Part shown: positions 25,966 to 53,247 of the stretch, piece by piece
Numbering within the stretch: the stretch's first letter is position 1
Layout: each line of letters begins with the position of its first letter
Source: Halorubrum aethiopicum
GTDB taxonomy: Archaea > Halobacteriota > Halobacteria > Halobacteriales > Haloferacaceae
Direction of reading: 5' to 3'
Length of the DNA: 64,000 nt
Assembly (NCBI RefSeq): GCF_001542905.1
Contig: NZ_LOAJ01000001.1
Coordinates: 2,108,001-2,172,000 of the forward strand
Notes under the pieces: generated by a model
Database searches by the model: none
What the model was told of the DNA's origin: nothing
What the model saw: only the letters and a program-made list of their open reading frames with translations
Program-made: the position numbers and the translations under genes

Positions 25966-26136
25966 ACCGGCGATCCGTGGGTGACGGCCATAACGGTGAT
26001 GGCATGACGAGACTCGCCTTCCCCGGCGTCGATTCGCTGCGTGGCGCTTTCACGCCTACCCGAACACGGAGACGATCGACGGAAGGGGAACATCTTCGGT
26101 GGTATCCTCAGGTGTGCGGAGCACGTATCCGGCTCC

Positions 26137-27495: not shown

Positions 27496-27615
27496 GCGAA
27501 TCGGACTCGCGGGCTCGCCGAACGGAGCGCCGACCGAGCGGACGCGTCCGGAGCGACGAGCCGATCGAACATGTACGGGGTCAGGGGTACCACTCCCGGC
27601 CTCGAACACGCGCGT

Positions 27616-29601: not shown

Positions 29602-29725
29602 CTCCCGTAGGACTCCCTTGCCGATCGGGCTCGAGCGATCGGTCGGGGTCGGAACGCCCCGGTCGTCGGAGCCGAAGAGCCCCCGGAGTGTGCCGGACGG
29701 CGCGAGGATCGTGGGATTCTATCCC

Positions 29726-29735
29726 AAATAATTAT
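29726..29735 (+). promoter_or_regulatory. AT-rich promoter element for the PEP-hydrolase-family gene
   Basis: AAATAATTAT lies 29-38 bases before the ATG at 29764 in otherwise GC-rich sequence, a likely TATA region giving a short or no leader. Confidence 0.45.
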
Positions 29736-29763
29736 GTTGCTGTGTGGTGTCGCGTGATCTGGA

Positions 29764-30597: not shown

Positions 30598-30618
30598 TCC
30601 CGGAGTCCGGCCGTCTTC

Positions 30619-31878: not shown

Positions 31879-31937
31879 CTACCGATCTCTGGGCCGTCGC
31901 GAAAATAATAGTATCGACCGTGTGCGTCGGCGGCCGC

Positions 31938-35528: not shown

Positions 35529-35760
35529 CCGAACCACCCCATTGGAGCCGTAAGTGGCGATCTCATGGGTAACACGATCGTTGATGATCGCTTCGGTACG
35601 TTAATCTTGTGATCCGCTGACTCGTACCGAGCCAGCCGTTCACGGGACGGTCGGAACGGCGAGCGGGCGACGCCGCCGTCGTCCCGCGAGGGAGGCGTAT
35701 CCAGAAGGGAACGCGGTGCCACGAGCCGCACGTGGTACCGTGAGTCGGCCGGCGACGGGA

Positions 35761-37119
35761 CTACTCGTCGCCGTATTCGTTCTCGCCCATCGCGCATTCG
35801 GACGCCGGGAACTCGTCGGCGCCGTAGATGAGCGGGTCGGTCGTCTCGACGACCTCGGTGCGGATGCCGAGCTCCTCGGCCCTGTCGTCGCCGACGCCTT
35901 GGACGAGGTACCAGGGGCGCTCGACCTGGTGGTCTGCCTCGCGGAAGACCGAGTCGCCCCACGCGAGGCTCCACTCGAACTCCTCGAGCGTCCGAACCAC
36001 CGTCGGCGGGTGGAACGTCCCCGCCTCCTCGACGGCGGCGGCGTAGACCATCATCGACTCGTAGGTGTGGAGCGAGCTCTGGTTCGGCGTCTCGTCGTAC
36101 TCGTCCTGGTACGCCTCGACGAACACGCTGCTCGCCTCGTTGTCCGCGGCGGGGTTCCACGGCTCCATGCCGAGGACGCCCTCGGCGTCGGCCCCGAGCG
36201 GGTCGAGCGTGAACGCGCTGACGTGCGGGATGATGACGTCGATCTCGTCGGTCAACCCGGCGTCGCGCATCTGCGAGAGGCCGCTGGCTGCGAAGCCGCC
36301 GAAGCTGGAGAAGTACAGCGTGTCCGCGCCGGACTCCTCGAGCGCCTGGATCTGGGAGCTGTGGTCGTTCTCCCCCTCGGCGATGGCGGCCTCGCCGGCG
36401 TCCTCCCACGGGCCGTTCTCCGTGAGGTACTTTCGGGCCGCGTCCCGGTTCGACTGTCCGTACGAGTAGTCCATGTAGATGTGGAACAGCGACCGGTCCT
36501 CGCCGAGGACCGAGGGCGCGGCGTCGCCCATCGCCATCCCGATGATCTCCGCGTGGAACGTCGGGTGGAAGTAGTAGCGCGAGCAGTTCTCCCCCGAGAT
36601 GCTGGCCGACGTGGAGTTCCCGCCCATGAACGGGACCTTCTCCCGCTGGGCGACGTCCTGCATCGCCATCGTCACGGTGCTGGACATGCCGCCGGTCCAG
36701 AACTGGATGTTGTCCCGCTGGATCATCCGGTCGATGTTGTCCTGGGCCGTGTCCGCGCTACCGGCCGTGTCCGCCTTCGTCGGCTCGACCTCGTAGCCCA
36801 TGATGCCGTCGCCGCTCAGTCGGTCCCAGTAGTCGACGAGCCCGCCGCCCTCGTTGAGGTGCTGGACCGCGAGGTCGAACCCCGCCTCCTGGTCCTGGCC
36901 GTCTGGACCCAGCGCGCCCGAGGTGGGCCCGTTGAATCCGATCGCCACGGTCTCGCCCTCGGGCGGGAAGTTCCCGATGGGATCGTACTCGTCGCCGCCG
37001 CCGCCACCGCCGCCGTCGCCGCCGGTACAACCGGCGAATCCGCCCGCGAGGCCGGTCGCGCCGATCGCTTTCAGATAGCGTCGCCTGGAGCTGTCGGTTG
37101 GAGATTGCTTGTCTGTCAT
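35761..37119 (-). CDS. ABC transporter solute-binding lipoprotein (LivK/Leu-binding type)
   Basis: The extracytoplasmic ligand-binding protein of the LivHMGF system, about 452 residues. A Tat signal with lipobox (RRRYLKAIGATGLAGGFAGC) anchors it by Cys near residue 33, followed by a Gly-rich linker. The receptor domain has the type-I periplasmic-binding fold: IGFNGPTSGALGPDGQDQEA (about residue 60), FWTGGMSSTVTMAM, IYMDYSYGQSN, and SGADTLYFSSFGGFAASG. The start is the ATG at 37119 (MTDKQSP); the upstream ATG at 37146 adds a poor N-terminus. Ligand unknown. Confidence 0.88.
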   Translation of the reverse strand: MTDKQSPTDSSRRRYLKAIGATGLAGGFAGCTGGDGGGGGGGDEYDPIGNFPPEGETVAIGFNGPTSGALGPDGQDQEAGFDLAVQHLNEGGGLVDYWDRLSGDGIMGYEVEPTKADTAGSADTAQDNIDRMIQRDNIQFWTGGMSSTVTMAMQDVAQREKVPFMGGNSTSASISGENCSRYYFHPTFHAEIIGMAMGDAAPSVLGEDRSLFHIYMDYSYGQSNRDAARKYLTENGPWEDAGEAAIAEGENDHSSQIQALEESGADTLYFSSFGGFAASGLSQMRDAGLTDEIDVIIPHVSAFTLDPLGADAEGVLGMEPWNPAADNEASSVFVEAYQDEYDETPNQSSLHTYESMMVYAAAVEEAGTFHPPTVVRTLEEFEWSLAWGDSVFREADHQVERPWYLVQGVGDDRAEELGIRTEVVETTDPLIYGADEFPASECAMGENEYGDE

Positions 37120-37159
37120 GGATTTTCGGAACGTTCGTAGAGACATGGTGTCATCCAGT

Positions 37160-37167
37160 AATTAAAT
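37160..37167 (-). promoter_or_regulatory. AT-rich element upstream of the solute-binding protein gene
   Basis: On the minus strand this reads ATTTAATT, about 41-48 bases before the ATG at 37119. It may give the transporter genes a promoter independent of the Tm-1-like gene upstream. Confidence 0.4.
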
Positions 37168-37223
37168 CTTTTGGTGCGATCGGTTCGGACGACGAGCCGG
37201 CGTCCACCCGGACCGGTCGGATC

Positions 37224-38423
37224 TCACATGTACCGGTCGATCCGCTCGGCGAGCGCCAGCGCGAACTCCTCGTCGTTGACGTGCGCGTCCGTCTCGATCA
37301 GTTCCACGTCGTCGTCGAGGTGCGCACGCAGGGCGTCGAACAGCGCCTCGTCGGCTTCCGGGTCGTGGAACTCCTCGCCCGGCGCGTCGAGCATGGAGAC
37401 GCCGCCGAGCGGCAACATCAGCGTGGTCGGCCCGGTGGCCGCGTTGAGCTTCTCGGCGATGATCCGACCGAGCTCGGCGTTCTCCTCGGGAGTGGTTCGC
37501 ATGAGGGTCACCTGCGGGTTGTGAACGTGGAACTTGCGACCCTCGAACTCCTCCGGGACGGACGACCTCGGCCCGAAGTTAACCATGTCGAGCGCGCCGA
37601 CCGACACCACCTGCGGGATCCCCGCCTTCCCGGCCGCCTCGAGTCGGTCCGGCCCGGCGGAGAGCACGCCGCCCACGAGTTCGTCGGCCCACTCCGTCGT
37701 CGTGACGTCGAGCACGGCGTCGATGACGCCCTCCTCGATCAGCGACTCCATCGCGCGGCCGCCGGTCCCCGTCGCGTGGAAGACGATCGTCTCGTAGCCG
37801 CGCTCCTCCAGCCAGTCGCGGGCCGCCTGTACGCAGGGCGTGGTGACGCCGAACATCGTCATGCCGATCGTCGGTTTCTCCGCGGTCTCCACGTCGGGCT
37901 CCGAGTCGACCATGCCGACGATCGCGAGCGCCGCGTTGGCTATCACCGTCCGCGAGAGCTGGTTCAGTCCCTCGATGTCGGCGACGGAGTACATCATCGC
38001 GATGTCCGAGTACTCCACGTACGGCTCCGTGTCGCCCGACGCGACCGTCGAGACCATGAACTTCGGAACGCCGACCGGGAGCGCCCGCATCGCCGCGGTC
38101 GCCATGGAGGTGTTCCCCGAGCCGCCCAGACCGAGGATCCCGTCCAGCCGGCCCTCCTCGTGGGCTCGGGACACGATCGCCGCGGCCCCCTCGCCCATGG
38201 CCTCGACGGCCGCGCCGCGGTCGCCGGCCTCGCGGAGCGACTCGAGGTCCGTCCCGCCCGCCGCCGCGACCGTGGCGGCGTCCGTGTCCGGTTCGATCTC
38301 CGGATCGCCCATCACGCCGACGTCGACGAGGTGAACGTCGATCCCCTCGGCCTCGATCACGTCCCGGGCGAAACCGATCTCCTCGCCTTTCGTATCCAGC
38401 GTCCCGACGATGTAGACGCTCAT
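37224..38423 (-). CDS. Tm-1-like ATP-binding protein (UPF0261)
   Basis: A 399-residue member of the UPF0261/Tm-1 N-terminal family. The start MSVYIVGTLDTKGEEIGFAR is the family's typical opening. Nucleotide-binding segments are visible: ILGLGGSGNTSMATAAMRALPVG-type glycine loop (about residue 108), FMVSTVASGDTEPYVE (about 132), GMTMFGVTTPCVQAARD (about 195), and FHATGTGGRAMESLI (about 224). TTTEWADELVGGVLSAGPDRL and SVGALDMVNFGP follow. In tomato, Tm-1 blocks tobamovirus replication; bacterial homologues are unfused and uncharacterised. It is the first gene of the transporter operon and pairs with the TIM barrel at 29764. Confidence 0.85.
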   Translation of the reverse strand: MSVYIVGTLDTKGEEIGFARDVIEAEGIDVHLVDVGVMGDPEIEPDTDAATVAAAGGTDLESLREAGDRGAAVEAMGEGAAAIVSRAHEEGRLDGILGLGGSGNTSMATAAMRALPVGVPKFMVSTVASGDTEPYVEYSDIAMMYSVADIEGLNQLSRTVIANAALAIVGMVDSEPDVETAEKPTIGMTMFGVTTPCVQAARDWLEERGYETIVFHATGTGGRAMESLIEEGVIDAVLDVTTTEWADELVGGVLSAGPDRLEAAGKAGIPQVVSVGALDMVNFGPRSSVPEEFEGRKFHVHNPQVTLMRTTPEENAELGRIIAEKLNAATGPTTLMLPLGGVSMLDAPGEEFHDPEADEALFDALRAHLDDDVELIETDAHVNDEEFALALAERIDRYM

Positions 38424-38622
38424 CGTTGCCCCGTCGCCGGCCCTGAGTGGTACCGCGTCCCTACTTGTTTCATGGGTTACGAACGTGACAACACCACAAA
38501 CCGTAATGAATATTCGGGTTGGTTTTGGCTCGATCGCGTCCGTATCCCGAGAACGGTGTTCTCTATGATAGAACAGGCGCGTCCGGGACGTGAGGCGGAA
38601 CGGGGGATCGGCGGCATGAGGA

Positions 38623-38628
38623 TTTATG
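38623..38628 (+). promoter_or_regulatory. TATA element for the PAS-GAF gene
   Basis: TTTATG lies 30-35 bases before the ATG at 38658. The Tm-1-like operon starts 235 bases away on the other strand, so this is a divergent control region. Confidence 0.45.
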
Positions 38629-38657
38629 GTGGCTTCCTCGCTACTGGCTGGTAATTC

Positions 38658-39569
38658 ATGTCCAACGCGCCAGACTGGAGCCAAACGACCGCGTCGCGTT
38701 CGTTCCCGGTCGCGTTAGACCGCCGGACGCCGGAGATGATCGCGAGCCTCCAGCGCCTCACGGGGATCGGGGTCTGGTCGTACGACGTCCCGCGGGACGA
38801 GGTGTGGTTGAGTGACGAGACGAAGCGGATCCATGACATCGACGTCGACGACGACCCGACGGTCTCCGACGTTATCGACCGGTACGTGGAGACCGACCGA
38901 CGCGAAGTGCTCGACTCGCTCTCCGCTGCGGTCGAGTACGGGGAGCCGTTCTCGGTCGACGTGAACTACGCCAGCGAGCGAACCACTGAACGGACGATCC
39001 GGCTCGGCTGCGATCCGGTCGTGGACGACGGGACCGTCGCGCTTTACGGGGTCCTCAGGGACGTGACCGACCTGAAGCGGCAGGAGCAACGCATCGAGAT
39101 CCTCCGGCAGACGAGCCAGGAGCTCCGGAAGGCCAGCTCGAAGGACGAGGTCGCGGGGATACTTGCCGACGCGGCGAAGAACGTCCTCGGCCTGGTGAAC
39201 ACCACCGTCCGCCTCGTCGACGAGAACCGGAACGTGCTCGAAACGATCGAGGCGACCGAGGAGTGTCTGGAGCGCGCCGGCGACCGCCCGAACTACGCGG
39301 TCACCGAGGACACCCCGGCTGCGAAGACGTATCGGACCGGGGAGCCGGTGATACACGCGAACCACGAGTTCACGGACGACGATCACAGTCGGGGTGCCCT
39401 CCAGTCGGGCCTGTACGTTCCGATCGGAAGCCACGGCGTCTTAAGCGCCGGCGACGTCGTCGTCGACGCCTTCGCGGAGCACGACCTCGAGGCGGCGAGC
39501 CTGCTCGGCGAACTCGGCGCTGAAGCGATCACCCGGATCGGCTGGGTGAAGCGGTCACGGGCGATCTGA
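38658..39569 (+). CDS. PAS-GAF sensory protein without an output domain
   Basis: A 303-residue soluble protein. Residues about 30-130 form a PAS domain (IGVWSYDVPRDEVWLSDETK, then PFSVDVNYAS and GVLRDVTDLKRQEQ), and about 150-300 a GAF domain (LADAAKNVLGLVNTTVRLVDE, GLYVPIGSHGVLSAG). No kinase, HTH or methyl-accepting region is present. Haloarchaeal bacterio-opsin-activator-type proteins have PAS-GAF plus a C-terminal HTH; this one ends at the GAF, so it may be a truncated relative or act through a partner such as the IclR regulator that starts 48 bases later. No membrane segment. Confidence 0.7.
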   Translation: MSNAPDWSQTTASRSFPVALDRRTPEMIASLQRLTGIGVWSYDVPRDEVWLSDETKRIHDIDVDDDPTVSDVIDRYVETDRREVLDSLSAAVEYGEPFSVDVNYASERTTERTIRLGCDPVVDDGTVALYGVLRDVTDLKRQEQRIEILRQTSQELRKASSKDEVAGILADAAKNVLGLVNTTVRLVDENRNVLETIEATEECLERAGDRPNYAVTEDTPAAKTYRTGEPVIHANHEFTDDDHSRGALQSGLYVPIGSHGVLSAGDVVVDAFAEHDLEAASLLGELGAEAITRIGWVKRSRAI

Positions 39570-39656
39570 GCGCCGAACGCGGTCGAACGACGGTCGTCCG
39601 CGGCATCGATTCGCATTATGAAAACAACTATCACGGATTATAACGATCATGCGCGT

Positions 39657-40418
39657 ATGATCGGAAACGTGACCGGGCGACGGCTCAAGACGACGGAGAC
39701 CTCGCTGGAGATACTGCGGCTCGTCCTCGAACGCGACGGCCTGACGCTCGACGAGTTGGACGGGTTAGTCGACAGTTCGAAGAGCTCCATCTGTAGCCAC
39801 CTCAACACGCTCTTGGACGGCCGGTATCTCGTCAAGGAAGGCGGGACCTATCACGTCAGTTTCCGGGTGGTGCTGCTGGGTGAGCGGGCGAGATACAGGT
39901 ATCCGACGGGGGAGGACGTCCGCGCGGTGATCGACCGATTGGCGAACGAGACGGGGCGGGAAGCCAACTTCACCGTCTTCGAGCACGGCCGCCTCCTCGC
40001 GTGTTACGGCACGTCGACGGACGAAGCGACGGACGGGTCGAACGTTCAGTACCGGTCGGAGTACCACCTCCACAACACCGCCGCGGGAAAGGCGATCCTC
40101 GCCGAACTCGACCGGGACGAGGTCGAGGCGATACTGGATCACTGGGGACTCCCGCGGGAGTCGGAGGCGACGATCACGGACCGCGACAGGCTGTTCGAGG
40201 CGCTCGACGAGATCGGGTCGCAGGGGTACGCCGTCGTCGACGAGGAGTTCGCCCCGAACCTGGTCTCGATCGGAGCCCCGGTTCACGACGCGGACGGGGG
40301 CGTCGTCGGCGGCGTGAGCGTCGGAGGCCCGAAGTACCAGGTCGGGGTGACCCAGCTGGAACGCGAGTGCGTCGCCGACCTGCTGGACGCCACCGAGGAG
40401 ATCGAATCGCTGCTTTGA
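39657..40418 (+). CDS. IclR-family transcriptional regulator
   Basis: A 253-residue regulator: N-terminal winged HTH (LKTTETSLEILRLVLERDGL ... SSKSSICSHLNTLLD, about residues 8-55) and C-terminal IclR effector-binding domain (RSEYHLHNTAAGKAILAELD, GYAVVDEEFAPNLVSIGAPV). I start at the ATG at 39657 (MIGNVTGRR); an in-frame ATG at 39618 would add 13 residues but lies within an AT-rich stretch that looks like the promoter. Its closest visible neighbours are the PAS-GAF gene and the divergent Tm-1/transporter operon, so it probably controls that locus. Confidence 0.85.
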   Translation: MIGNVTGRRLKTTETSLEILRLVLERDGLTLDELDGLVDSSKSSICSHLNTLLDGRYLVKEGGTYHVSFRVVLLGERARYRYPTGEDVRAVIDRLANETGREANFTVFEHGRLLACYGTSTDEATDGSNVQYRSEYHLHNTAAGKAILAELDRDEVEAILDHWGLPRESEATITDRDRLFEALDEIGSQGYAVVDEEFAPNLVSIGAPVHDADGGVVGGVSVGGPKYQVGVTQLERECVADLLDATEEIESLL

Positions 40419-40767
40419 TCCCCGACTCGCGTCCGATCCGCGATCGATCCCCGTCGGCTCCACCGATTCACATAATGAAAAACTGTCGAATGTCACCACT
40501 TCACAAGGTATGTTTCACGCGCTCGTCGGAGAAGACATTACACCAGTACAACTGTAATGGATACTGGCGAGAAACGCGGACGAACCAGCGTATTTACGAT
40601 ATGTGAATTCACGTGACCGAAGAAGCGAGCGTTCGACGATCGACCGACACGGATGCCGGTCGGTCGGAGCGACCGCCTCGACCGCGGGCCGGGACTTCCG
40701 TTCCGAACTCTCGAGACGTCGTTCCCTACACCGGAACGCTTATTCGAGAGATACACGATCGATCGGT
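40419..40767 (+). promoter_or_regulatory. Intergenic control region between the two IclR genes
   Basis: No gene is visible in these 349 bases. A sequence near 40464-40487 (gattcacataatgaaaa) resembles the region just before the first IclR gene (39607-39630). The palindrome cattaca-N10-tgtaatg sits at 40536-40559, a size typical of IclR operators. A TATA-like CTTATTCG occurs at 40739-40746, 22-29 bases before the ATG at 40768. Confidence 0.45.
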
Positions 40768-41523
40768 ATGGAACCGAAAAACCCGGTGCGCACCACCGAG
40801 AAAACCCTCGCGCTGATCGAGGAGCTGATGGCGAAAGAGCCCTGTGGCGTGAGCGAACTGGCGAGCGGTCTCGAGATGGGCAAGAGCGCGGTTCACAACC
40901 ACCTGAGCACGCTGCGAACGCAGGGGTACGTCCTGAAGGAGGGGGACGACTACCGCCTCGGGTTGAAGTTCCTCGAAGTCGGGGGACACAGCCGGAAGTC
41001 GATGGAGATCTATCAGGTCGCGGAACCCGAGGTGAAGTCGCTCGCGGCCGAGACGGGGGAGCTGGCGAACCTCCTCGTCGAAGAGCAGGGAATGGGCGTC
41101 TATCTGATGCGGGCCAAGGGTGACGAAGCCGTCGACCTGGACACGCACGCGGGGCTGCGAACGAACCTCCACACGACGGCGCTCGGGAAGGCGATCCTCG
41201 CGAACCTCTCCGAGGAACGGGTCGAGACGATAGTCGAGAGACACGGGCTCGACCGGAAGACGCCACGGACCGTCGGCACCCACGAGGAGCTGTTCGACGC
41301 GCTGGCGGAGATCCGCGAGCGGGGCTACGCGATCGACGACGGTGAACGCCTCGAGGGACTCCGATGTGTCGCCTCGGCGATCACGTCCTCGAGCGGCGAG
41401 GTCCTCGGCGCGGTCAGCGTCTCCGCGCCCGCCAACCGGGTCAGCGACGAAGCCCTCCACGGCACTCTCCCGGAGCGCGTTCTCAGCGCGGCGAACGTGA
41501 TCGAGTTGAACATCAACTACTGA
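40768..41523 (+). CDS. xacR: IclR-family regulator, XacR-like
   Basis: A 251-residue IclR protein: winged HTH ([20 protein letters not shown], then [19 protein letters not shown]) and effector domain ([40 protein letters not shown]). It is beside xacF and xacD, the position of XacR in Haloferax volcanii, which activates the pentose genes in response to xylose or arabinose metabolites. The symbol rests on that context and family, not on direct alignment. It is convergent with xacF. Confidence 0.75.
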
Positions 41524-41526
41524 CGT

Positions 41527-41543
41527 GTTCCGTGTCTCGGAAC
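41527..41543 (+). terminator. Hairpin after the IclR gene
   Basis: gttccg-tgtct-cggaac forms a six-base-pair stem with five-base loop four bases after the stop at 41521-41523. There is no following T-run, so a terminator role is uncertain. Confidence 0.3.
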
Positions 41544-41760
41544 GTCGATACGACGGCGGCGAAGCCGCGTCGACGCGGCTCCTGCGGCCGGATCGTCCGT
41601 GATCCCGTCGTCCGTTACGCCCGTATTCATGTAACGTCCAACGTCCCACTGTACAATATCCGCGCTCGGTAGCGTGTTCCGAAATGGAGAACGGAGGACC
41701 GCCGCGCGAATCGGGCGGAGGATCCACTCGACCGCCGAAGCCGTCGCGAGCGTCGTCGTT

Positions 41761-43209
41761 TCAGTAGCCGTCGTAGACCGTCTTCTCGATGGTGTAAAAC
41801 CGGAGGCCCGCGTCGCCTTGCTCGCGCCACGTCTCCGAGGAGGAGCGCTTGAAGCCGCCGAAGGGGACGTGGAGTTCGAGCCCGGTCGTCTTCTCGTTGA
41901 CCTTCGCCACGCCGGCCTCGATCGCGTCGACGAATCGGTTCGCCTCCGCGTGGTCGTCCGTGACCACGCTCGCCGAGAGGCCGTACTCCACGTCGTTGGC
42001 GACGGCGAGCCCCTCCTCGAAGTCGGCGACCTCGATGACGCCGACGACGGGGCCGAACACCTCCTCCTGGGCGATCCGCATGTCGGGCTCCACGTCGGTG
42101 AACACCGTCGGCTGGACGAAGTGACCGGTTTCGACCGCGTCGCCGTCGGGAACGCCGCCGCCCGCCGCGAGCGTCGCGCCCTCGTTCGAGGCGACGTCGA
42201 TGTACTCGAGGGTGGACGACAGCTCCGCCTCGCTGACCTGCGGGCCCATCTCGTGCTCGAGTCCGGGACCGACGTCGATCGACTCCGCGCGGTCGACCAG
42301 CTCCGCGACGAACTCGTCGTGGACGGCCTCGTGGACCACGGCCCGCGAGCACGCGGTACACGACTGCCCGGTCGTGCCGAACCCGCCGGACGCGACGATG
42401 TCGGCGGCCTCGGCGGGGTCCGCCGACTCGGCCACGAGCGTCGGGTTCTTCCCGCCCATCTCGGTCTGGACGCGCTTGCCCTCGTCGGTGGCCTGTTCGT
42501 ACACCATCTCGCCGACCTCGCTGCTGCCGGTGAAGGAGACGAGGTCCGTCCCCTCGCTCGTGATGAACTCGTCGCCGACGGTGCTCCCCGGCCCGGTGAC
42601 CAGATTGAAGACGCCGTCAGGGAGTCCCGCCTCGTCGAGCGCCCGCGCGAGCTCGATCGCGACGCCCGGCGCGAGGGAGGCCGGCTTGAGGACCACCGTG
42701 TTCCCCGCGACGAGGGCCGGAGCGAGCTTCCAGGCCGGGATCGCGATCGGGTAGTTCCACGGCGTGACGAGCGCCGCGACGCCGACGGGCTCCCGGCGGA
42801 TGTAGAGGTTCGTGTCGCGGCCGCTCGACGCCTTCCGAGTGCCCGCGAGGTCAGACGCCTTCCCCGCGAAGTAGTGGAAGATGTCGATCGCCCGCTGGAC
42901 CTCGCCGGCGGCCTCCGGACGGGCCTTCCCCTCCTCGGCCACGAGGGTCTCCGTGATCTCCGCTTTCCGTCCGGCGAGGATCGTCCCCGCCTCCCGCAGG
43001 ATCCGACCGCGCTCCGGCCCGGGCGTGTCCCGCCAGTCCGCCTCGGCCGCGACCGCGGCGTCGACCGCGGCGGCGGCGTCCCGCTCGTCCGACCGCGGGT
43101 AGGTCGCGACGACCTCGTCCGGGTTCGCCGGGTTCCGGACCTCGATCGTCTCTCCCGTCTCCGAGTCTCGCCATTCGCCGTCCACGTAGTTCGTTGTGGG
43201 CTCCGACAT
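41761..43209 (-). CDS. xacF: 2,5-dioxopentanoate (alpha-ketoglutarate semialdehyde) dehydrogenase
   Basis: NAD(P)-dependent aldehyde dehydrogenase of 482 residues that completes pentose oxidation by making 2-oxoglutarate. Family motifs: TPWNYPIAIPAWKLAPALVA, VFNLVTGPGSTVGDEF, FTGSSEVGEMVYEQ, the catalytic Glu in EMGGKNPTLVAESA, and the catalytic Cys in GTTGQSCTACSR. I start at the ATG at 43209 (MSEPTTNYVDGEW), the usual ALDH opening; an ATG at 43239 would add ten residues. The xacF identity comes from the neighbouring xacD, xacA, xacE and IclR gene. Confidence 0.82.
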   Translation of the reverse strand: MSEPTTNYVDGEWRDSETGETIEVRNPANPDEVVATYPRSDERDAAAAVDAAVAAEADWRDTPGPERGRILREAGTILAGRKAEITETLVAEEGKARPEAAGEVQRAIDIFHYFAGKASDLAGTRKASSGRDTNLYIRREPVGVAALVTPWNYPIAIPAWKLAPALVAGNTVVLKPASLAPGVAIELARALDEAGLPDGVFNLVTGPGSTVGDEFITSEGTDLVSFTGSSEVGEMVYEQATDEGKRVQTEMGGKNPTLVAESADPAEAADIVASGGFGTTGQSCTACSRAVVHEAVHDEFVAELVDRAESIDVGPGLEHEMGPQVSEAELSSTLEYIDVASNEGATLAAGGGVPDGDAVETGHFVQPTVFTDVEPDMRIAQEEVFGPVVGVIEVADFEEGLAVANDVEYGLSASVVTDDHAEANRFVDAIEAGVAKVNEKTTGLELHVPFGGFKRSSSETWREQGDAGLRFYTIEKTVYDGY

Positions 43210-43358
43210 CGGGTCGTACGTCAACGGTCGCACACTCATGTCTTTTGGTCGCCGCGTCTCGTCGTCGGTCCGCGATCGGCCGCGGCTCGTCAGTGGCGGC
43301 TCGACGGCGGCGGTTCGACGGCGGCGTGACTCGTCGAGTTCCCATAGGCTTTTGTAGC

Positions 43359-43374
43359 GTGTCGTCGGAGACAC
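43359..43374. promoter_or_regulatory. Inverted repeat between xacF and xacD
   Basis: gtgtc-gtcgga-gacac lies immediately before the xacD start at 43382 and in the divergent xacF upstream region. It is a candidate operator for the pentose regulator; I cannot confirm the XacR motif from memory. Confidence 0.35.
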
Positions 43375-43381
43375 GGTCGTC

Positions 43382-44620
43382 ATGGTCGATCACGCGAAGC
43401 TTCGCGACCCGAACGCGGAGTACACGATGCGAGACCTGTCGAGGGAGACGATGGATCTCACGAAGCCGCGGGGCGGCGTCCGCGACGCGGAGATCACGGA
43501 CGTCCAGACCACGATGGTCGACGGGAACTACCCGTGGATCCTCGTGCGCGTCTACACCGACGCGGGCGTCGTCGGCACCGGCGAGGCCTACTGGGGCGGC
43601 GGCGACACCGCGATAATCGAGCGGATGAAGCCCTTCCTCGTGGGGGAGAACCCGCTCGACATCGACCGCCTGTACGAGCACCTGATCCAGAAGATGTCCG
43701 GCGAGGGGTCGATCTCGGGGAAGGTCGTCTCGGCCATCTCCGGGATCGAGATCGCGCTCCACGACGCCGCCGGGAAGCTCCTCGACGTGCCGGCCTACCA
43801 GCTCGTTGGCGGCAAGTACCGCGACGACGTCCGGATCTACTGCGACCTCCACACGGAGAACGAGGCGGACCCGGAGGCCTGCGCCGAGGAGGGAGTCCGC
43901 GTCGTCGAGGAGCTCGGCTACGACGCGATCAAGTTCGACCTCGACGTGCCCTCGGGCCACGAGAAGGACCGCGCGAACCGCCACCTCCGCGACCCCGAGA
44001 TCGACCACAAGGTCGAGATCGTCGAGGCCGTGACGGAGGCGGTCGGCGACCGCGCCGACGTCGCCTTCGACTGCCACTGGTCGTACGCGGCCGGCAGCGC
44101 GAAGCGGCTCGCGGCGGCGGTCGAGGAGTACGACGTGTGGTGGCTCGAGGACCCCGTCCCGCCGGAGAACCACGACGTCCAGCGGCGCGTCACGGAGTCG
44201 ACGACGACCCCCATCGCGGTCGGCGAGAACGTCTACCGGACGTTCGGCCAGCGAACCCTGCTCGAGCCGGGGGCGGTCGACATCGTCGCGCCGGACCTCC
44301 CGCGGGTCGGCGGCATGCGCGAGACCCGCAAGATCGCCGATCTGGCCGACCTGTTCTACATCCCCGTGGCGATGCACAACGTCTCCTCGCCGATCGGGAC
44401 GATGGCGTCCGCGCAGGTGGCCGCAGCCATCCCGAACTCGCTCGCCGTCGAGTACCACTCCTACGAGCTCGGCTGGTGGGAGGACCTCGTCGAGGAGGAC
44501 GACCTCATCCAGGAGGGTCGAATGGAGATCCCCGAGGAGCCGGGACTCGGCCTCACGCTCGACCTCGACGCCGTCGAGGAACACATGGTCGAGGGCGAGG
44601 AGCTGTTCGACGAGGCGTAA
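43382..44620 (+). CDS. xacD: Xylonate/pentonate dehydratase, enolase superfamily
   Basis: A 412-residue mandelate-racemase/enolase-superfamily dehydratase that converts D-xylonate (and probably L-arabinonate) to 2-keto-3-deoxypentonate. Metal ligands fit the family: Asp in AFDCHWSY (about residue 225), Glu in WWLEDPVPPEN, Glu in VGENVYRT; Lys in IKFDLDVPSGHEKD and His in AMHNVSSP act in catalysis. The sequence closely resembles what I know of Haloferax XacD, including the opening MVDHAKLRDPNAEYTM-type segment. Divergent from xacF; the isomerase/dehydrogenase cassette follows 106 bases later. Confidence 0.92.
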   Translation: MVDHAKLRDPNAEYTMRDLSRETMDLTKPRGGVRDAEITDVQTTMVDGNYPWILVRVYTDAGVVGTGEAYWGGGDTAIIERMKPFLVGENPLDIDRLYEHLIQKMSGEGSISGKVVSAISGIEIALHDAAGKLLDVPAYQLVGGKYRDDVRIYCDLHTENEADPEACAEEGVRVVEELGYDAIKFDLDVPSGHEKDRANRHLRDPEIDHKVEIVEAVTEAVGDRADVAFDCHWSYAAGSAKRLAAAVEEYDVWWLEDPVPPENHDVQRRVTESTTTPIAVGENVYRTFGQRTLLEPGAVDIVAPDLPRVGGMRETRKIADLADLFYIPVAMHNVSSPIGTMASAQVAAAIPNSLAVEYHSYELGWWEDLVEEDDLIQEGRMEIPEEPGLGLTLDLDAVEEHMVEGEELFDEA

Positions 44621-44695
44621 GCCGAAGTCGAGCTCGATAGACGAGCGGAGCGAAACCGAGCGCGGAGATCCCCGATCGCCGCGGTCCGCCCATAG

Positions 44696-44702
44696 TTTTA
44701 TT
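44696..44702 (+). promoter_or_regulatory. TATA element for isomerase/dehydrogenase cassette B
   Basis: A T-rich TTTTATT tract lies 25-31 bases before the ATG at 44727, so cassette B has its own promoter within the pentose cluster. Confidence 0.5.
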
Positions 44703-44726
44703 TTCTGACGGAACGACCGAAGGCGC

Positions 44727-45695
44727 ATGGACGTAGGAGTCCTGACAGTTGTACTCGGTGACGAACCGCTCGAGGAAGCGCTCGATTACCTCTCCGGACT
44801 CGGCGTCGGCACGGTCGAACTCGGCTGCGGCGGGTTCGTCGGCGACGACCACCTCGATCGGGAGGCGTACCTCGACGACGAGGCGGCACAGCGCGAGCTG
44901 CTGGAGCTGGTCGAGGAGCACGACCTCGAGATCAGCGCGCTCTCGACGCACAACAACCCGCTCCACCCCGACGACGAGCGCGCCGAGCGCGCGGCGACGG
45001 AGATCCGAGAGGCGGTCCGGCTCGCCGACCAGCTTGGCGTGGACGCCGTCAACACCTTCTCCGGGCTGCCGGCGGGGGGACCGAACGGCGAGGTCCCCAA
45101 CTGGATCACGGCCCCGTGGCCGCCCGAACACGCCGACGCGCTGGAGTACCAGTGGGAGGAGGTCGCGATCCCGACGTGGACCGCGCTCGCGGAGCACGCG
45201 GACGACCACGGCGTCGACATCGGCATCGAGATGCACCCGAACATGCTGGTGTACGAGCCGACGGGCATGATGCGCCTCCGAGAGGCGACGAACGAGCGCG
45301 TGGGCGCGAACTTCGATCCCTCCCACCTCTACTGGCAGGGGATCGACGTCACCGAGGCGATCCGCTTCCTGGGCGAACGCGACGCGATCCACCACGTCCA
45401 CGCGAAGGACACGAAGGTCTACGAGTCGAACGCTCGGATCAAGGGCGTCCTCGACACCGAGCCGTACACGGCCGAGCCGGACCGCTCGTGGCTGTTCCGC
45501 TCGATCGGCTACGGGCACGGCGAGGCCCACTGGAAGGACGTGGTCTCGACGCTCCGGATGGTCGGCTACGAGGGCGCGCTCTCGATCGAACACGAGGACT
45601 CGCTCACGTCGGGCCGCGAGGGGCTAGAGAAGGCCGTCGACGTGCTCCAGCGAGCCGTCTTCGAAACGCAGCCGGGCGACGCCTACTGGGCCTGA
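44727..45695 (+). CDS. Sugar phosphate isomerase/epimerase-type TIM barrel protein (cassette B)
   Basis: A 322-residue paralogue of the protein at 8621 with the same ligand segments: THNNPLHPDDERAE, EMHPNMLVYEPTGMM, VGANFDPSHLYWQGIDV, HHVHAKDTKVYESN and ALSIEHEDSL. Its N-terminal half differs throughout (for example MDVGVLTVVLGDEPLEEALD), whereas residues from about 190 on are nearly identical. It lies between xacD and xacA and overlaps no gene, five bases before the dehydrogenase. A role in a side branch of pentose or related sugar use is likely but unproven. Confidence 0.85.
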   Translation: MDVGVLTVVLGDEPLEEALDYLSGLGVGTVELGCGGFVGDDHLDREAYLDDEAAQRELLELVEEHDLEISALSTHNNPLHPDDERAERAATEIREAVRLADQLGVDAVNTFSGLPAGGPNGEVPNWITAPWPPEHADALEYQWEEVAIPTWTALAEHADDHGVDIGIEMHPNMLVYEPTGMMRLREATNERVGANFDPSHLYWQGIDVTEAIRFLGERDAIHHVHAKDTKVYESNARIKGVLDTEPYTAEPDRSWLFRSIGYGHGEAHWKDVVSTLRMVGYEGALSIEHEDSLTSGREGLEKAVDVLQRAVFETQPGDAYWA

Positions 45696-45699
45696 TACC

Positions 45700-46845
45700 A
45701 TGAGCCTGACAGTCGGATTCCTCGGCTACCGGTTCATGGGCAAGGCGCACGCGAACGCGCTGGCGCGGCTCCCGATGTTCTTCCCCGACGCGCCCGCCGT
45801 CGAGCGCGACGTCCTCGTCGGGCGCGACGAGGAGGCGCTCGCGGACGCGGTCGACCGGCTCGGATTCGATCGGTACGTGACCGATTGGCGGGACGCCGTC
45901 GACGACGTCGACGTGTTCTACAACCTCGGGCCGAACAGCCTCCACCCGGAGCCGTCGATCGCGGCGCTCGAGGCGGGTGCCCACGCGTTCTGTGAGAAGC
46001 CGCTCGCCCACGACCTCGAGGCGGCCGAGCGGATGGCGGACGCGGCGCGCGAGAGCGACGCGGTCACCGCCACCGCGTTCAACTACCGATTCATCCCTGC
46101 GATCCAGTACGCGAGAGACCTCGTCGAGAGCGGCGCGATCGGCGAGGTACGGCACGTCCGCGCGCGGTACCTCCAGGACTGGCTGGTCGATCCCCAGGCG
46201 CCCTGGAGCTGGCGGAACTCGGCGGAGGTGGCGGGATCGGGCGCGCTCGGCGATCTGGGCGCGCACTCGATCGACCTCGCGCAGTTCCTCCTCGGATCGC
46301 GGATCGACCGCGTCTCGGGGCACCTGCGGACGTTCGTCGACGAGCGACCCGTGCCCGGCGGGGGCGACGGCGACGCCCTCTCTGCGTCCGGGTCCGACAG
46401 CCGGGAGACGAGGGCCGTCACGGTCGACGACGCGTACACCGCGCAGGCCGCGTTCGCGGACGGGACCATGGGCCTCTTCGAGGCCTCGCGGTTCGCCACG
46501 GGACACAAGAACGGGAACACGATCGAGCTCAACGGGTCGGAGGGGTCGATCCGGTTCGACCTGGAGCGGCTCAACGAACTCGAGGTCCTCCGGGGAGACG
46601 GTCGGGGCTTCGAGACGATCCACGTCACCGACGAGTCGGACCCGTACGGGGACCGGTGGTGGCCGGCGGGTCACAACGTCGGCTGGGAGCACGCGCTCGT
46701 CCACGAGAACTACGAGTTCCTCTCGGCGGTCGCGAACGGCGGGAGCTACGAGCCGGACTTCGAGACGGGACTCGCGGTCCAGGAGGTCCTCGACGCGATC
46801 GAGCGGAGCGACGAGCGCGGCGAGTGGGTCGACGTACGGACCTGA
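45700..46845 (+). CDS. Gfo/Idh/MocA-family sugar dehydrogenase (cassette B)
   Basis: A 381-residue paralogue of the dehydrogenase at 9604: Rossmann segment VGFLGYRFMGKAHANALA, CEKPLAHDLEAAER with the catalytic lysine, AFNYRFIPAIQYARD, GSGALGDLGAHSIDLAQFL, and a C-terminal FEASRFATGHKNGNTIELNG. A Gly/Ser-rich insertion (PVPGGGDGDALSASGSDS, about residues 220-237) is absent from copy A. It begins four bases after the isomerase stop and is therefore cotranscribed. xacA is the same superfamily but only distantly similar, so the two act on different sugars or steps. Confidence 0.88.
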   Translation: MSLTVGFLGYRFMGKAHANALARLPMFFPDAPAVERDVLVGRDEEALADAVDRLGFDRYVTDWRDAVDDVDVFYNLGPNSLHPEPSIAALEAGAHAFCEKPLAHDLEAAERMADAARESDAVTATAFNYRFIPAIQYARDLVESGAIGEVRHVRARYLQDWLVDPQAPWSWRNSAEVAGSGALGDLGAHSIDLAQFLLGSRIDRVSGHLRTFVDERPVPGGGDGDALSASGSDSRETRAVTVDDAYTAQAAFADGTMGLFEASRFATGHKNGNTIELNGSEGSIRFDLERLNELEVLRGDGRGFETIHVTDESDPYGDRWWPAGHNVGWEHALVHENYEFLSAVANGGSYEPDFETGLAVQEVLDAIERSDERGEWVDVRT

Positions 46846-46890
46846 CCCGAGCGCGGGCGCCGGGGTCTCCCCCGACCCGGCCGGACCGGG

Positions 46891-47985
46891 TCAGGCGCTC
46901 TCGACTTCGACGTCGCTTCCGCGCTCGGCCGCGGCGTAGATCGCGTCCATCGCGCGCATGTCGACGAGCGCGTGATCGCCGTCGGGATGGGGATCGGTCC
47001 CCGTCAACAGGCAGTGTGCGAAGTAGTCGAACTCCTCGGTCATCTGGTCGACTCGGTCGAAGTCGTAGTCGACGGACTGGGAGCCGACCGACAGCCGGAA
47101 CCCCCGATTCTGTCGGTTGTAGAACGCCGGGTCGAGGGTGACCTCGCCCTCCGTTCCCGTCACGCGGAGGAAGCTCGACTGGACGGCCGACTGGCTGGCG
47201 GTACACGCCGCGAGCGTCCCGTCGTCGAAGTCGACGCCGAAACTGACGTGTTCGTCGCCGACCGCGTCGAACGGCTCGGACTCGACGACCGCTCGAGCCC
47301 GGACGCGGACCGGGTCGGCGTCGAGGACGAACCGGGCGGTGTTCAGCGGGTACAGGCCGATGTCCATGACCGTCGCGCCGCCCGACAGCCCCGGATCGAG
47401 CCGCCACTGGTCCGGATCGGGAACGACCTCGTCGAGGAGTCGCTGGGACATGTGCCCGTGGACGACGACGGGCTCGCCGATCGCGCCGCTCTCGACGACC
47501 TCTCTGGCCCGTCGCACCGCCGGTTCGGTCTGCATCCGGTAGGCGACCATCAGGGGAACGTCGGCGTCCCCGCAGGCCTCGACGAGCCGCTCGGCGCGCT
47601 CGACGGACGCCTCCAGCGGCTTCTCACAGAGGACCGCCTTCCCGAGGTCGGCGGCCGTCTCGACGTACGGCAGATGGGCACCGTTCGGCGTGACGACGTA
47701 CACGGCGTCGTAGGCGTCGGCCGCGACCCCGTCGTGGAACTCCTCGTAGGTGAGCCCGTGCGCGATCGAGTCCGCGAGGTCGGTCGCCGACCTGACCTTC
47801 TCCGCGGAGCCGCTGACGACCGCAGTCGTCTCACAGAAGTCGGACGCCGCGACCGCGGGGATGGCCTGCTCGCGCGTCCACCAGCCCAGCCCGACCATCG
47901 CGACCCTGATCGTTCCCGTCGTCTCCCCCGACTGCCAGTCGCGGCGGGTGAACCCGTCGAGCGAGGGGAGGGGGTCGTCGGTCAT
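46891..47985 (-). CDS. xacA: D-xylose 1-dehydrogenase (NADP+)
   Basis: A 364-residue Gfo/Idh/MocA dehydrogenase oxidising pentoses to lactones at the start of the oxidative pathway. Motifs: [69 protein letters not shown], and [20 protein letters not shown]. Much of the sequence, including [20 protein letters not shown], agrees with my memory of Haloferax volcanii XacA (HVO_B0028). Its ATG overlaps the xacE stop by 4 bases, so the two are coupled. Confidence 0.92.
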
Positions 47986-48851
47986 ACCGAGACCACGCCG
48001 TTCGAGAGCGTTCCGATCTCCTCGATGGTGATGTCGACCCGATCACCTTCCTGTAGGTCGAAGGATCCCTCGGGGACGAGCGAGGTTCCGGTCAGAAGCA
48101 CCGACAGCTCCGGCACGGCGTTATGGCGGGTGAAGTACGAGACGAGCTCCTCACAGGAGCGGACCATCCCGCTCGTGTTCGTGGCGTCCTCGTAGACGAC
48201 GTCCCCGTCCCGCTCGATGGTCATCTCCATGTCGAGGTCGTGCGGGTCGTCGACGCGATCCCGCGAGACCACGCACGGACCGAGCGAACAGCTCCGGTCG
48301 TACACCTTCGCCTGGGGGAGGTACAGCGGGTTCGCGCCCTCGATGGACCGGCTGCTCACGTCGTTGCCGATCGTGAAGCCGACTATCTCGCCGCGATGGA
48401 GGACGATCCCCAGCTCCGGCTCGGGGACGTTCCACGTCGAGTCCTCCCTGACCCCGACGGGCTCTCGGTTGCCGACCGTCCGCGACGGCGTGGCCTTGAA
48501 GAACAGCTCCGGCCGCTCCGCGTCGTAGACGTCGAGGTAGATGTCCGGCATCGAGCTCTCGTCCTCCCTGGCCTGTTCGCTGATCTCGTAAGTCACGCCG
48601 GCCGCCCAGACCTCCGACGCGTCTACCGGAACCATCGCGTTCTCCTCCACTACCGAGGGATCGAGGGTCTCGGCCTCGTCGAGCAACCTCGTGGCGACGT
48701 GGTCGATCGATTCCCCGTCGGCACTCGCCGCCCTCGCCACGTCTCCGAACGAACGGAGGTCCGCGTCGGCACTCGTGAGATCGTACGTTTCGGACCGTCG
48801 AGTCACCGCGACACGTCTGTTTCCCGATAGGTTGAGCTGACTATATCGCAT
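47982..48851 (-). CDS. xacE: 2-keto-3-deoxyxylonate dehydratase, FAH family
   Basis: A 289-residue fumarylacetoacetate-hydrolase-fold dehydratase producing alpha-ketoglutarate semialdehyde from 2-keto-3-deoxypentonate. FAH signatures are [15 protein letters not shown] (about residue 113), [20 protein letters not shown] with metal-binding Glu residues, and [20 protein letters not shown] (about 159). The ATG at 48851 has a TATA element 26-31 bases upstream. It is the first gene of the xacE-xacA operon; assignment as xacE follows from fold plus cluster context. Confidence 0.88.
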
Positions 48852-48876
48852 TCGTCCGCATGTCGTTGGGGCCTAG

Positions 48877-48882
48877 TATAAA
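48877..48882 (-). promoter_or_regulatory. TATA element for xacE-xacA
   Basis: On the minus strand TTTATA lies 26-31 bases before the ATG at 48851, embedded in a short AT-rich run (CTTTTATACT). A leaderless transcript is expected. Confidence 0.6.
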
Positions 48883-49049
48883 AGTACGGCCGGGAGACGG
48901 ATCACTCGTTTCCGGTCCCTGTGCCGCTCTGAAATCGGGGAGAAACCGGTAGCGCTGCGTCTCACGGACTACCTCGGTCGAGGAGACGTCACTCGATTTC
49001 GACCTCATCCGGACACGCCGATGCCGTCTCTCCCCTCGATCTCGATAGG

Positions 49050-49104
49050 CATTCGGACGACATTCGGACGACATTCGGACGACATTCGGACGATATTCGA
49101 TCGA
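49050..49104 (+). repeat. Phased 11-bp direct repeats (cattcggacga)
   Basis: Four exact copies of CATTCGGACGA occupy 49050-49060, 49061-49071, 49072-49082 and 49083-49093, with a degenerate fifth (TATTCGATCGA) at 49094-49104. The 11-base period is close to one DNA turn, so all copies would face the same side, as expected for a regulator or initiator binding array. It directly precedes an AT-rich segment and the SMC-related gene. Confidence 0.9.
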
Positions 49105-49281
49105 GACTTGAGCGAGATCAAGAAATATAAGAAAAATTAGTAGTAATACATACTAATTCTTATATATATTACGAATATATTCCGTGTTTTATGCCCATCT
49201 GTGTCCTATAAATAAGAAATCCAATACGTTACGATCGGCTGGAACCGGTATTGAGCGGTCCCCCGTCAACTGCCGACCGCC
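49105..49281. promoter_or_regulatory. AT-rich segment upstream of the SMC-related gene
   Basis: From about 49120 to 49215 the sequence is strikingly AT-rich for this genome, with an inverted repeat (aattagta at 49135-49142, tactaatt at 49151-49158) and a TATATATATT run. It could hold the promoter of the SMC-rdfA pair or a melting element. The 430-base gap 48852-49281 contains no convincing gene. Confidence 0.5.
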
Positions 49282-51261
49282 ATGAGCACATTTAATGAGT
49301 GGGATCATCATTATCAGGGTGTGTCGGCAGAACAATTCAACGAACCACGGGCGCGAATCGACGTTCGAAACATCGGAGGGATCGACGACGCCGAGGTCAC
49401 CGTTCCACCCGGTGTCTCGGTGCTGACCGGACGAAACGCGACGAACCGGACGTCCTTTCTGAAGGCGCTCATGGCGGCGCTCGGCAGCGAAAAGGCCTCG
49501 CTCAAGGGCGACGCCGAGGAGGGTTCGGTCACCCTCGAGATCGACGGACAAACCTATACCCGAACGCTGACGCGGCAGGGAGAGACGGTCGCGTTCGGCG
49601 GCGATCCCTATCTCGACGATCCCGAACTCGCCGACCTGTTCGCCTTCCTGCTCGAGAACAACGAGGCGCGCCGCACCGTCGCCCGCGGTGACGACCTCCG
49701 AGAGCTCATCATGCGGCCGATCGATACGGACCGCATCGATGCCGAGATCGAGTCGTGTAAACGCGAGCGCGAAGAGATCGACGAGGAGATCGAACGACTC
49801 GAACGGATCGAGCGCGAACTCCCCGAACTTCAGGAGGAACGGCGCGAGAAACGGGCGGAACTCGAGGAGGCGCGAGACGAGTTGGCGACCGTTCAATCCG
49901 AACTCGAGGAGCTTGAAACGGACGTCGAACAGAGCCGCTCGCGAAAGCGAGAACTCGAGGAGGCGTTTCAGCGCGTCCGGGACGCCCGCTCGGAACTGGA
50001 CGACCTCGAGTTCGACCTCGAAACCGAGCGGACGACTCTCTCCGAACTCGAATCCGAGCGCGACGAGCTCGAGGAAACGCTCGCCGAGGCGGAGCCGTTC
50101 GAGACGGAGCCGGACCGGCTCGCGGGACGCGTTGAAGAGCTTCGGAACCGCAAGCGAGCGCTCGACGACACGATCAGCAACCTCACGAGCGTCGTCAGCT
50201 TCAACGAGGACATGCTCGAAGGGGAGACGCTCGGTCTCGAAGGGACCGACGCCGACGAGTCGACGGAGCTGACCGACGCGCTGACGGCGAACGACGAGAC
50301 GACCTGTTGGACCTGTGGGTCGACCGTCGCGACCGAACAGATCGAAGGAACGCTCGACCGGCTCCGCGAGCTGCGCTCGGAGAAGCTCGAGGAGCGGAAC
50401 GACATCGAGTCCGAGATCACCGAACTCACGGAGAAACGATCGGAACTCCGCAGCAAGCGTCGGGAGATCGAGCGAGCCGAGGACGGACTCGCCGAGGTCG
50501 AAGCGGAGATCGAGACCACGAACGAGCGTATCGCGGATCTCGAGGACCGCATCGAGGAGAAACGAACCGAGATCGCGGACCTCGAGGCCGAAGCCGAAGC
50601 GATCGAGGTCGGAGACCACGACGACGTGCTCGAACTCCACCGGGAGTCCAACGAACTCGAACTCCGCGTCGAACGGCTCGAGGACGACCTCGACGCGATA
50701 GACGAGGAGATCGCGAACCGTGAGGAGACGCTCGAGGACCGTGACGACCTCGAGGCCGAACGCGAAGAGCTCACCGAGCGGCTCACGGACCTCCGGACCC
50801 GCGTCGAGCGCATCGAGAAGGACGCCGTGACGGCGTTCAACGACCACATGGAGACGGTGCTCGACATCTTGGAGTACGACAATCTCGATCGGATCTGGAT
50901 CGAACGCCGCCGGGAGGAGGCACGTGAGGGGCGCCGAAAGGTGACGAGGACGCGGTTCGAGTTACACATCGTCCGCTCCGCCGCGGACGGGTCCGCGTAC
51001 GAGGACACGATCGACCACCTCTCGGAGAGCGAACGCGAGGTGACCGGGCTCGTCTTCGCGCTCGCCGGTTACCTCGTTCACGACGTCCACGAGGTCGTTC
51101 CGTTCGTCGTCCTCGATTCGCTGGAAGCGATCGATTCGGACCGGATCGGACGCCTCGTCGACTACTTCCGCACACACGCGGAGTATCTCGTCGCTGCGTT
51201 ACTGCCCGAAGACGCCGAGGCCCTCTCGAGCGAGTACACGTACGTGACGAGCATCGACTAG
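49282..51261 (+). CDS. Archaea-specific SMC-related protein (Sph3-like)
   Basis: A 659-residue Rad50/SMC-like protein. The N-terminal P-loop region is LTGRNATNRTSFLKAL (residues 49-64): the lysine of the Walker A is replaced by Arg56 and the preceding glycine by Asn. Two long coiled coils (about 130-325 and 350-520) flank a zinc-hook CWTCG (Cys342, Cys345). The C-terminal ATPase part has HLSESEREVTGLVFALAGYL (signature-like) and FVVLDSLEAIDSD (Walker B-like, Asp612, Glu replaced by Ser). Such proteins are large, DNA-associated ATPase relatives found with rdfA in haloarchaea. The rdfA gene follows 101 bases later. Start ATG at 49282. Confidence 0.88.
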   Translation: MSTFNEWDHHYQGVSAEQFNEPRARIDVRNIGGIDDAEVTVPPGVSVLTGRNATNRTSFLKALMAALGSEKASLKGDAEEGSVTLEIDGQTYTRTLTRQGETVAFGGDPYLDDPELADLFAFLLENNEARRTVARGDDLRELIMRPIDTDRIDAEIESCKREREEIDEEIERLERIERELPELQEERREKRAELEEARDELATVQSELEELETDVEQSRSRKRELEEAFQRVRDARSELDDLEFDLETERTTLSELESERDELEETLAEAEPFETEPDRLAGRVEELRNRKRALDDTISNLTSVVSFNEDMLEGETLGLEGTDADESTELTDALTANDETTCWTCGSTVATEQIEGTLDRLRELRSEKLEERNDIESEITELTEKRSELRSKRREIERAEDGLAEVEAEIETTNERIADLEDRIEEKRTEIADLEAEAEAIEVGDHDDVLELHRESNELELRVERLEDDLDAIDEEIANREETLEDRDDLEAEREELTERLTDLRTRVERIEKDAVTAFNDHMETVLDILEYDNLDRIWIERRREEAREGRRKVTRTRFELHIVRSAADGSAYEDTIDHLSESEREVTGLVFALAGYLVHDVHEVVPFVVLDSLEAIDSDRIGRLVDYFRTHAEYLVAALLPEDAEALSSEYTYVTSID

Positions 51262-51362
51262 GCTCAGCGGGACGATGGACCGTTGGACGGGTCGTCGTTT
51301 CGGATCTCCCGAGGAGGGCATGACACCAGTAAGTTTGTAACGGTCGCTCCGCTAGCGGACGT

Positions 51363-51974
51363 ATGAGCGACGGTACGCGGAGTCGCGGAACGAAGGTTGC
51401 ACGGCTCATCGACGAGTACGACCTGTCCGGAACGGGGGCACGACTCGAGGCGGCGTGGACGGGCACGTCCGGCGAGCGGACGAGCCTCCGAGACCTCGCC
51501 GACGAGTTCAACGAACGACTGCTCGAAGTGAGCCTTCGCGAGGCGAACGTCTCTCCTCGTGATTTCGAGGTCACCGGAACGTACGAGGCACTACGGGAGG
51601 GATCGAGTTCCGAGAGAACTCGCGCCCGGCGACGTCTCGAACGCGAAGGGATAGACGTGGAGGCGCTCTCGAGCGATTTCGTGACACACCAGGCGATACA
51701 CACGTACCTGAGAAAGGACCGCGAGGCACGTCTCCCGGACGAGGACGAGGACGTAGTCGAACGAAAGATCGAGACGCTCGAGAAACTCCAAGGGCGGGTC
51801 GCCGTCGTCACGGAGACGACGATCGAGTCGCTCGCTTCGGCCGAGGAGCTCGACCACCCGGAGTACGACATCCTGGTGGACGTCCAGGCCATCTGCTCGA
51901 AGTGCGGATCGAACCACTCCGTCGGTGAGCTATTCCGTCAGGGTGGCTGTCAATGTGAAGTCTTGTCTGATTAA
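51363..51974 (+). CDS. rdfA: RdfA-family rod-determining factor
   Basis: A 203-residue protein of the RdfA family, named after a Haloferax volcanii factor needed for rod-shaped cells. The N-terminal KVARLIDEYDLSGTGARLEAAW-type segment, SLRDLADEFNERLLEVSL, the RRRLEREGIDVEALSSDFVTHQAIHTYLR block and a C-terminal cysteine cluster (AICSKCGSNHSVGELFRQGG followed by C-x-C) fit that family as I know it. The cysteines could bind zinc. It follows the SMC-related gene on the same strand, the known arrangement. Direct mechanism is unknown. An AT-rich stretch begins just after the stop. Confidence 0.82.
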   Translation: MSDGTRSRGTKVARLIDEYDLSGTGARLEAAWTGTSGERTSLRDLADEFNERLLEVSLREANVSPRDFEVTGTYEALREGSSSERTRARRRLEREGIDVEALSSDFVTHQAIHTYLRKDREARLPDEDEDVVERKIETLEKLQGRVAVVTETTIESLASAEELDHPEYDILVDVQAICSKCGSNHSVGELFRQGGCQCEVLSD

Positions 51975-52196
51975 ATATACGTATGCGACCCCACACAAAT
52001 GCGTAAAACCAAACAGACAGATAATAGATAATTAAACCGTCATATGCTCGCTAATCGACGGCCTAGTCGAACGGTCTCAAGAACCATGGCAGTCTCGATA
52101 CAGACGCTCCGTGAGAGATCGTCGTAGAGACCGATACCGCCGGGGAGACTGAGCGTGATGGAGACCGACCTGATTCGCTGCCGATCCGGGGCGCGG
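51975..52196. other. AT-rich spacer after rdfA
   Basis: 222 bases with no gene. The first ~70 bases (to about 52045) are AT-rich (for example agataatagataattaaacc), mirroring the AT-rich block on the other side of the SMC-rdfA pair; the remainder is ordinary GC-rich sequence. Confidence 0.5.
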
Positions 52197-53090: not shown

Positions 53091-53247
53091 CGGTGGGTGC
53101 CTCCGGTGACGACCGCGTTCGACGTTCGTGTCACGAACGTGAACCGGCCTCTCGGACGAGTGATCGTAGACGACGAAGCCGCATACGACGACTGCCACAT
53201 CCGTGGGGTGACTTTTACGTCCGCGAACCGGCCGTACGACGGCGGCC

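Follow-up and report, generated by a model that had tools for sequence, protein, structure and literature searches.

The window, that is the 64,000-nucleotide stretch of Halorubrum aethiopicum DNA analyzed here, encodes an archaea-specific SMC-related protein (ASRP, Sph-type) and an RdfA-family protein in tandem on the same strand, ASRP first and with 101 bases between the two genes, an adjacency that is usual, not universal, for these families. The pair is preceded by a proximal promoter, an AT-rich stretch and an array of 11-bp direct repeats (Table 1). A preliminary description made from the sequence letters had listed four exact and one degenerate repeat copies, AT-rich DNA before and after the pair, an SMC-like gene and an rdfA-family gene. 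The repeat copies were recovered in the sequence and by Tandem Repeats Finder (TRF), AT-rich DNA was present at 49118-49235 and 51974-52100, and both gene families had been named correctly.

Table 1. Features of the ASRP-rdfA locus in window coordinates.
Feature	Position	Strand	Details
Variable island	26004..52180	.	Absent from the two nearest genomes (G128, G136); the pair is its right end
Divergent FAA-hydrolase gene	47982..48806	-	PF01557; longest-ORF ATG at 48851
11-bp direct-repeat array	49050..49104	.	CATTCGGACGA, four exact copies and one degenerate copy
AT-rich stretch	about 49118..49235	.	Best 60-base window 85% A+T
7-bp inverted repeat ATTAGTA/TACTAAT	49136-49142, 49151-49157		Inside the AT-rich stretch; read by eye
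Conserved proximal promoter	49287..49300	+	TATA box ATTTAA at 49290-49295
ASRP gene (Sph-type)	49321..51261	+	NF045487; GTG start, 646 aa
rdfA-family gene	51363..51974	+	PF21811; 203 aa, helical

The ASRP and RdfA proteins

The product of the first gene matched the NCBIfam model NF045487 with 691 bits against a cut-off of 300 and over positions 1-593 of 593. Its start was placed at the GTG at 49321 and the ATG at 49282, with which the longest ORF begins, was rejected, because orthologs align from 49321 and a conserved TATA box lies downstream of that ATG. In the predicted structure, hook strands (residues 326-337) are located between long helices that form two coiled-coil arms, and the best Foldseek match of the model was Rad50 (E 5.1e-16, probability 1.00). 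The zinc hook, C329-W-T-C332, was invariant in 99/99 aligned haloarchaeal ASRPs. Sequence and model together point to a Rad50/SMC-type fold and a coiled-coil molecule with a zinc hook. PDB sequence searches returned no match for either the ASRP or RdfA.

With its NF045487 match, coiled coil, zinc hook and N- and C-terminal ATPase motifs the protein corresponds to the ASRPs as described (PMC9389158), and it differs from them in two residues of the ATPase site. Walker A (49429-49455) reads GRNATNRTS, with Arg at the Lys position as in 99/99 haloarchaeal ASRPs (exact or near motif), and Walker B (51112-51135) reads LDSLEAID, in which the Ser after the Asp replaces the catalytic Glu as in 98/99 of these proteins. 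The canonical ATPase site of the SMC superfamily (Walker A Lys and Walker B catalytic Glu) is lacking in this ASRP, but this does not argue against membership in the family, since the noncanonical site is common to essentially all 99 haloarchaeal ASRPs, in which the signature LSESER and the zinc hook CWTC are retained. In the portion of the family-defining paper cited here, Walker A and B motifs are given as present in ASRPs and the Arg and Ser changes are not mentioned (PMC9389158). We treat the Arg/Ser site as a lead and make no claim about activity.

The second gene product matched the whole Pfam model PF21811 with 228 bits against a cut-off of 27, and the alignment revealed four invariant cysteines at its C-terminal end (C178, C181, C196 and C198). 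Its predicted model reached a pLDDT of 88, Foldseek gave nothing better than E 1.6 and the best VIA-align Z was 4.5, so no fold was assigned.

As the preliminary description had stated, the association of the two families is established in haloarchaea: among 24 genomes 42/54 RdfA-family proteins (78%) and 42/50 SMC-like proteins are encoded side by side (PMC10869688). The Sph3-RdfA pair of Haloferax volcanii (HVO_2175-HVO_2174) is required for rod formation, cells without either HVO_2174 (rdfA) or sph3 being disk-only and non-motile (PMC10869688), and the four Sph paralogs of this species have a role in gene conversion and influence shape in different ways (PMC11276520). The window encodes the same two adjacent families, a likeness at family level in which Sph2, Sph3 and Sph4 are not distinguished, and differs from the Haloferax pair in being an accessory copy with ASRP-then-rdfA order on a variable island, next to which no ddfA homolog was noticed among the genes read. 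The same families in the same annotated order are found in EO776_RS16455/RS16450 on the megaplasmid NZ_CP034941.1 of Halorubrum ezzemoulense Fb21, whose neighbors include an IclR regulator and a branched-chain ABC permease; this pair differs in its location on a plasmid and is about 66% identical over the matched half. The ASRP-rdfA pair is already known, and the window adds another copy.

Upstream DNA and the 11-bp array

The exact CATTCGGACGA units begin at 49050, 49061, 49072 and 49083 and are followed by the degenerate unit TATTCGATCGA at 49094; TRF reported the array as 49050-49099 with a period of 11, 4.5 copies, 97% match and a score of 93. Period 11 gave a self-match of 33/33 in the real sequence, whereas 300 Markov-shuffled versions of the gap reached at most 21 at any period between 6 and 30. 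Since no shuffle approached the real value, the array is not a chance string, and the zero mismatches among its four units point either to a recent origin or to a process that keeps the units alike.

About 185 bases separate the array from the conserved TATA box downstream of it. The promoter core is GATTTAACAC in most of the 23 aligned ortholog upstream regions, and the TATA box, about 30 bases before the GTG at 49321, is kept in position and sequence across orthologs that are without the array. Apart from this proximal TATA element no conserved sequence was found within the AT-rich patch across the clade, and the inverted repeat ATTAGTA/TACTAAT has a size expected by chance in such AT-rich DNA. 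AT-rich patches recur before ASRP genes (16/28 versus 19/72 long gaps, p = 0.005, with relatives not independent). In the gap 3' of rdfA the best 60-base window reaches 67% A+T.

The preliminary description had taken the array for a regulator or partition-type binding site specific to this locus, a proposal to be given up if the repeats occurred only in this strain with no conservation. This is what was observed. The exact CATTCGGACGA dimer had no second site in the whole genome besides the array at 49050, was found in 0 of 51 congeneric genomes (one genome per species) and was missing from the viral contigs searched, and the single unit had one stray copy elsewhere in the genome versus 1.1 expected. 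Upstream of 96 other ASRP genes no such array was present; these genes include the 85%-identical ortholog and the two further ASRP copies of this genome, one of which is the 79%-identical one. A locus-specific repeat motif was rejected on the basis of these searches, which covered the genome itself, 51 congeners, viral contigs and 97 ASRP upstream regions.

Other ASRP orthologs carry upstream tandem arrays of unrelated units (15, 18, 22 and 25 bp), and the recurrence of sequence-unrelated arrays appeared promising at first as an ASRP trait. It was rejected when arrays with a TRF score of at least 57 were counted in upstream gaps: 8/72 ASRP genes and 43/389 other genes had one (11.1% each, Fisher p = 1.0; genes called with a simple codon-usage caller, related genomes not independent). 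The CsmR operator TATCA-N4-TGATA was likewise discarded as a candidate, with 6/97 occurrences before ASRP genes (at most two mismatches) versus about 6 expected. A second, stronger tandem array of 22 bp (TRF score 107) is located in the window at 53238-53310 between two unrelated genes; its copy number is about 3.5 here, whereas G128 has about 1.9 copies and G136 about 1. Given the equal array rates and the varying copy number of the latter array, short tandem duplication is an ordinary intergenic feature here. The 11-bp array is most likely an ordinary, single-species tandem duplication rather than a conserved control site, and most likely neutral with no dedicated function.

A lineage-specific operator, with helically phased units through whose binding a regulator would control the accessory pair, is an unlikely reading. 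The spacing of 11 bp corresponds to about one helical turn, the units are exact and situated within the upstream region of the pair, and the regulator could possibly be RdfA, via its C-terminal zinc-ribbon-like part, or an IclR protein, as two regulators of this family are encoded in the island. However, no copy stands before the other rdfA/ASRP loci of the genome or any ortholog, the conserved TATA box is far from the array, arrays are just as common elsewhere and, as weak evidence, the RdfA model has no recognizable DNA-binding fold match. A young species-specific operator would look unconserved too, and the missing conservation is therefore compatible with one. We give very little credence to a newly arisen, species-specific binding site by which the accessory pair would regulate itself or on which the SMC-like protein would load; if true, the control of this pair would be separate from that of the second rdfA-ASRP pair in the genome.

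The variable island and further ASRP copies

In L168 (94-96% DNA identity) and L169 (91-93%), window positions 26003 and 52181 lie next to each other, separated by about 17 bases; the empty-site genomes, G128 and G136, are the nearest two examined. The empty site in these sister genomes argues for acquisition of the pair, and the island was probably gained here rather than lost in both relatives, a direction favored by the mixed ancestry of its parts. Acquisition had previously been proposed from the AT-rich flanks; the event itself stands, while AT-richness is weak evidence for it because the patch recurs upstream of ASRP genes generally.

Genes of the island encode a branched-chain-type ABC transporter, two IclR-type regulators, an aldehyde dehydrogenase, a mandelate-racemase-like enzyme, GFO/IDH oxidoreductases and the FAA hydrolase, the latter being part of a sugar-acid cluster that spans 41761-48890. 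Positions 42152-48890 are 87% identical to contig 107 of G134, in which the remaining 0.8 kb holds no pair, and the DNA homology of an 85%-identical ortholog is limited to 49318-51950, i.e. the pair. These separate extents of homology indicate that the catabolic genes and the pair had different histories before they became linked on the island.

The G134-like segment ends at 48890 and the homology of the pair begins at 49318. The array falls into the interval between these points, as would be expected if it were a footprint of the island insertion or of the event that linked the pair to the sugar-acid cluster, e.g. an attachment-site remnant. We consider this very improbable, since neither the CATTCGGACGA unit nor a direct repeat was seen at the island ends (26003 and 52181), no integrase or transposase was present among the Pfam-scanned island genes and the dimer is absent from the viral contigs. 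Iteron origins and centromere arrays share a general layout of direct repeats followed by AT-rich DNA. The array and the adjacent AT-rich stretch match this layout and could be regarded as a partition or replication site, an iteron- or centromere-like element for the SMC-like protein. This reading is barely credible: among the island genes scanned (26137-48806) there was no match to Orc1/Cdc6, Rep or ParA, the locus is on a 3.05 Mb contig, the two nearest genomes live without it and no other ASRP has such an array upstream.

The second rdfA copy that the preliminary description had suggested looking for was found at C1:765253-767863, in a pair with rdfA-ASRP order (ASRP 57% and RdfA 49% identical). 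A third ASRP gene (L011 6694-8631, contig C2 of G000), 79% identical to the window copy, lies in AT-rich DNA with no rdfA detected and ends 306 bases before the end of contig C2. At least seven congeners (L172, L173, L174, L177, L178, L179 and L180) have an ASRP gene, 69-70% identical, beside part of the sugar-acid set; there the ASRP gene lies on the opposite side of the FAA hydrolase, no rdfA was detected in its vicinity, and in L179 the ASRP gene is embedded in the sugar-acid cluster. The mandelate-racemase-like enzyme beside these congener ASRPs is about 91% identical where found.

Several other observations were made in the window. The island contains a 950-base gap without a convincing gene (28239-29190, best 60-base window 82% A+T), next to which two genes without a Pfam match are located (26137-28239). 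ARAGORN called a tRNA-Gly at 44205-44281, within the gene for the mandelate-racemase-like enzyme; this call is probably spurious. A NuoCD-like gene, identified by reading of the sequence, is located at 54119-55723 and has two further copies in the genome; the copy at this position is also found in G128 (98%) as well as G143, G038 and G151 (83-84%) and was not seen there in G136.

Interpretation of the locus

We interpret the locus, with a probability of roughly 80%, as an accessory Sph-RdfA shape pair on a variable island of about 26 kb, in which the array is a local tandem duplication and most likely functionless. The ASRP gene and rdfA would probably form one transcription unit behind the conserved TATA box, and the ASRP is predicted to make a Rad50-like coiled-coil molecule with a zinc hook. 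RdfA probably serves this ASRP as a dedicated partner, as suggested by the adjacency of the genes and by the disk-only deletion phenotype that the two share in Haloferax. By homology, the pair probably tunes rod/disk shape and, like the Haloferax Sph paralogs, probably affects gene conversion between genome copies. The array itself would be a duplication that arose in this lineage, most likely without a dedicated function, and its follow-up as a control site is not warranted without new evidence.

What the analysis adds is that the two shape genes travel together, on variable islands as well as on plasmids, and that a genome can carry several copies of them. The unusual ATPase site common to haloarchaeal Sph proteins is testable by mutation in Haloferax.
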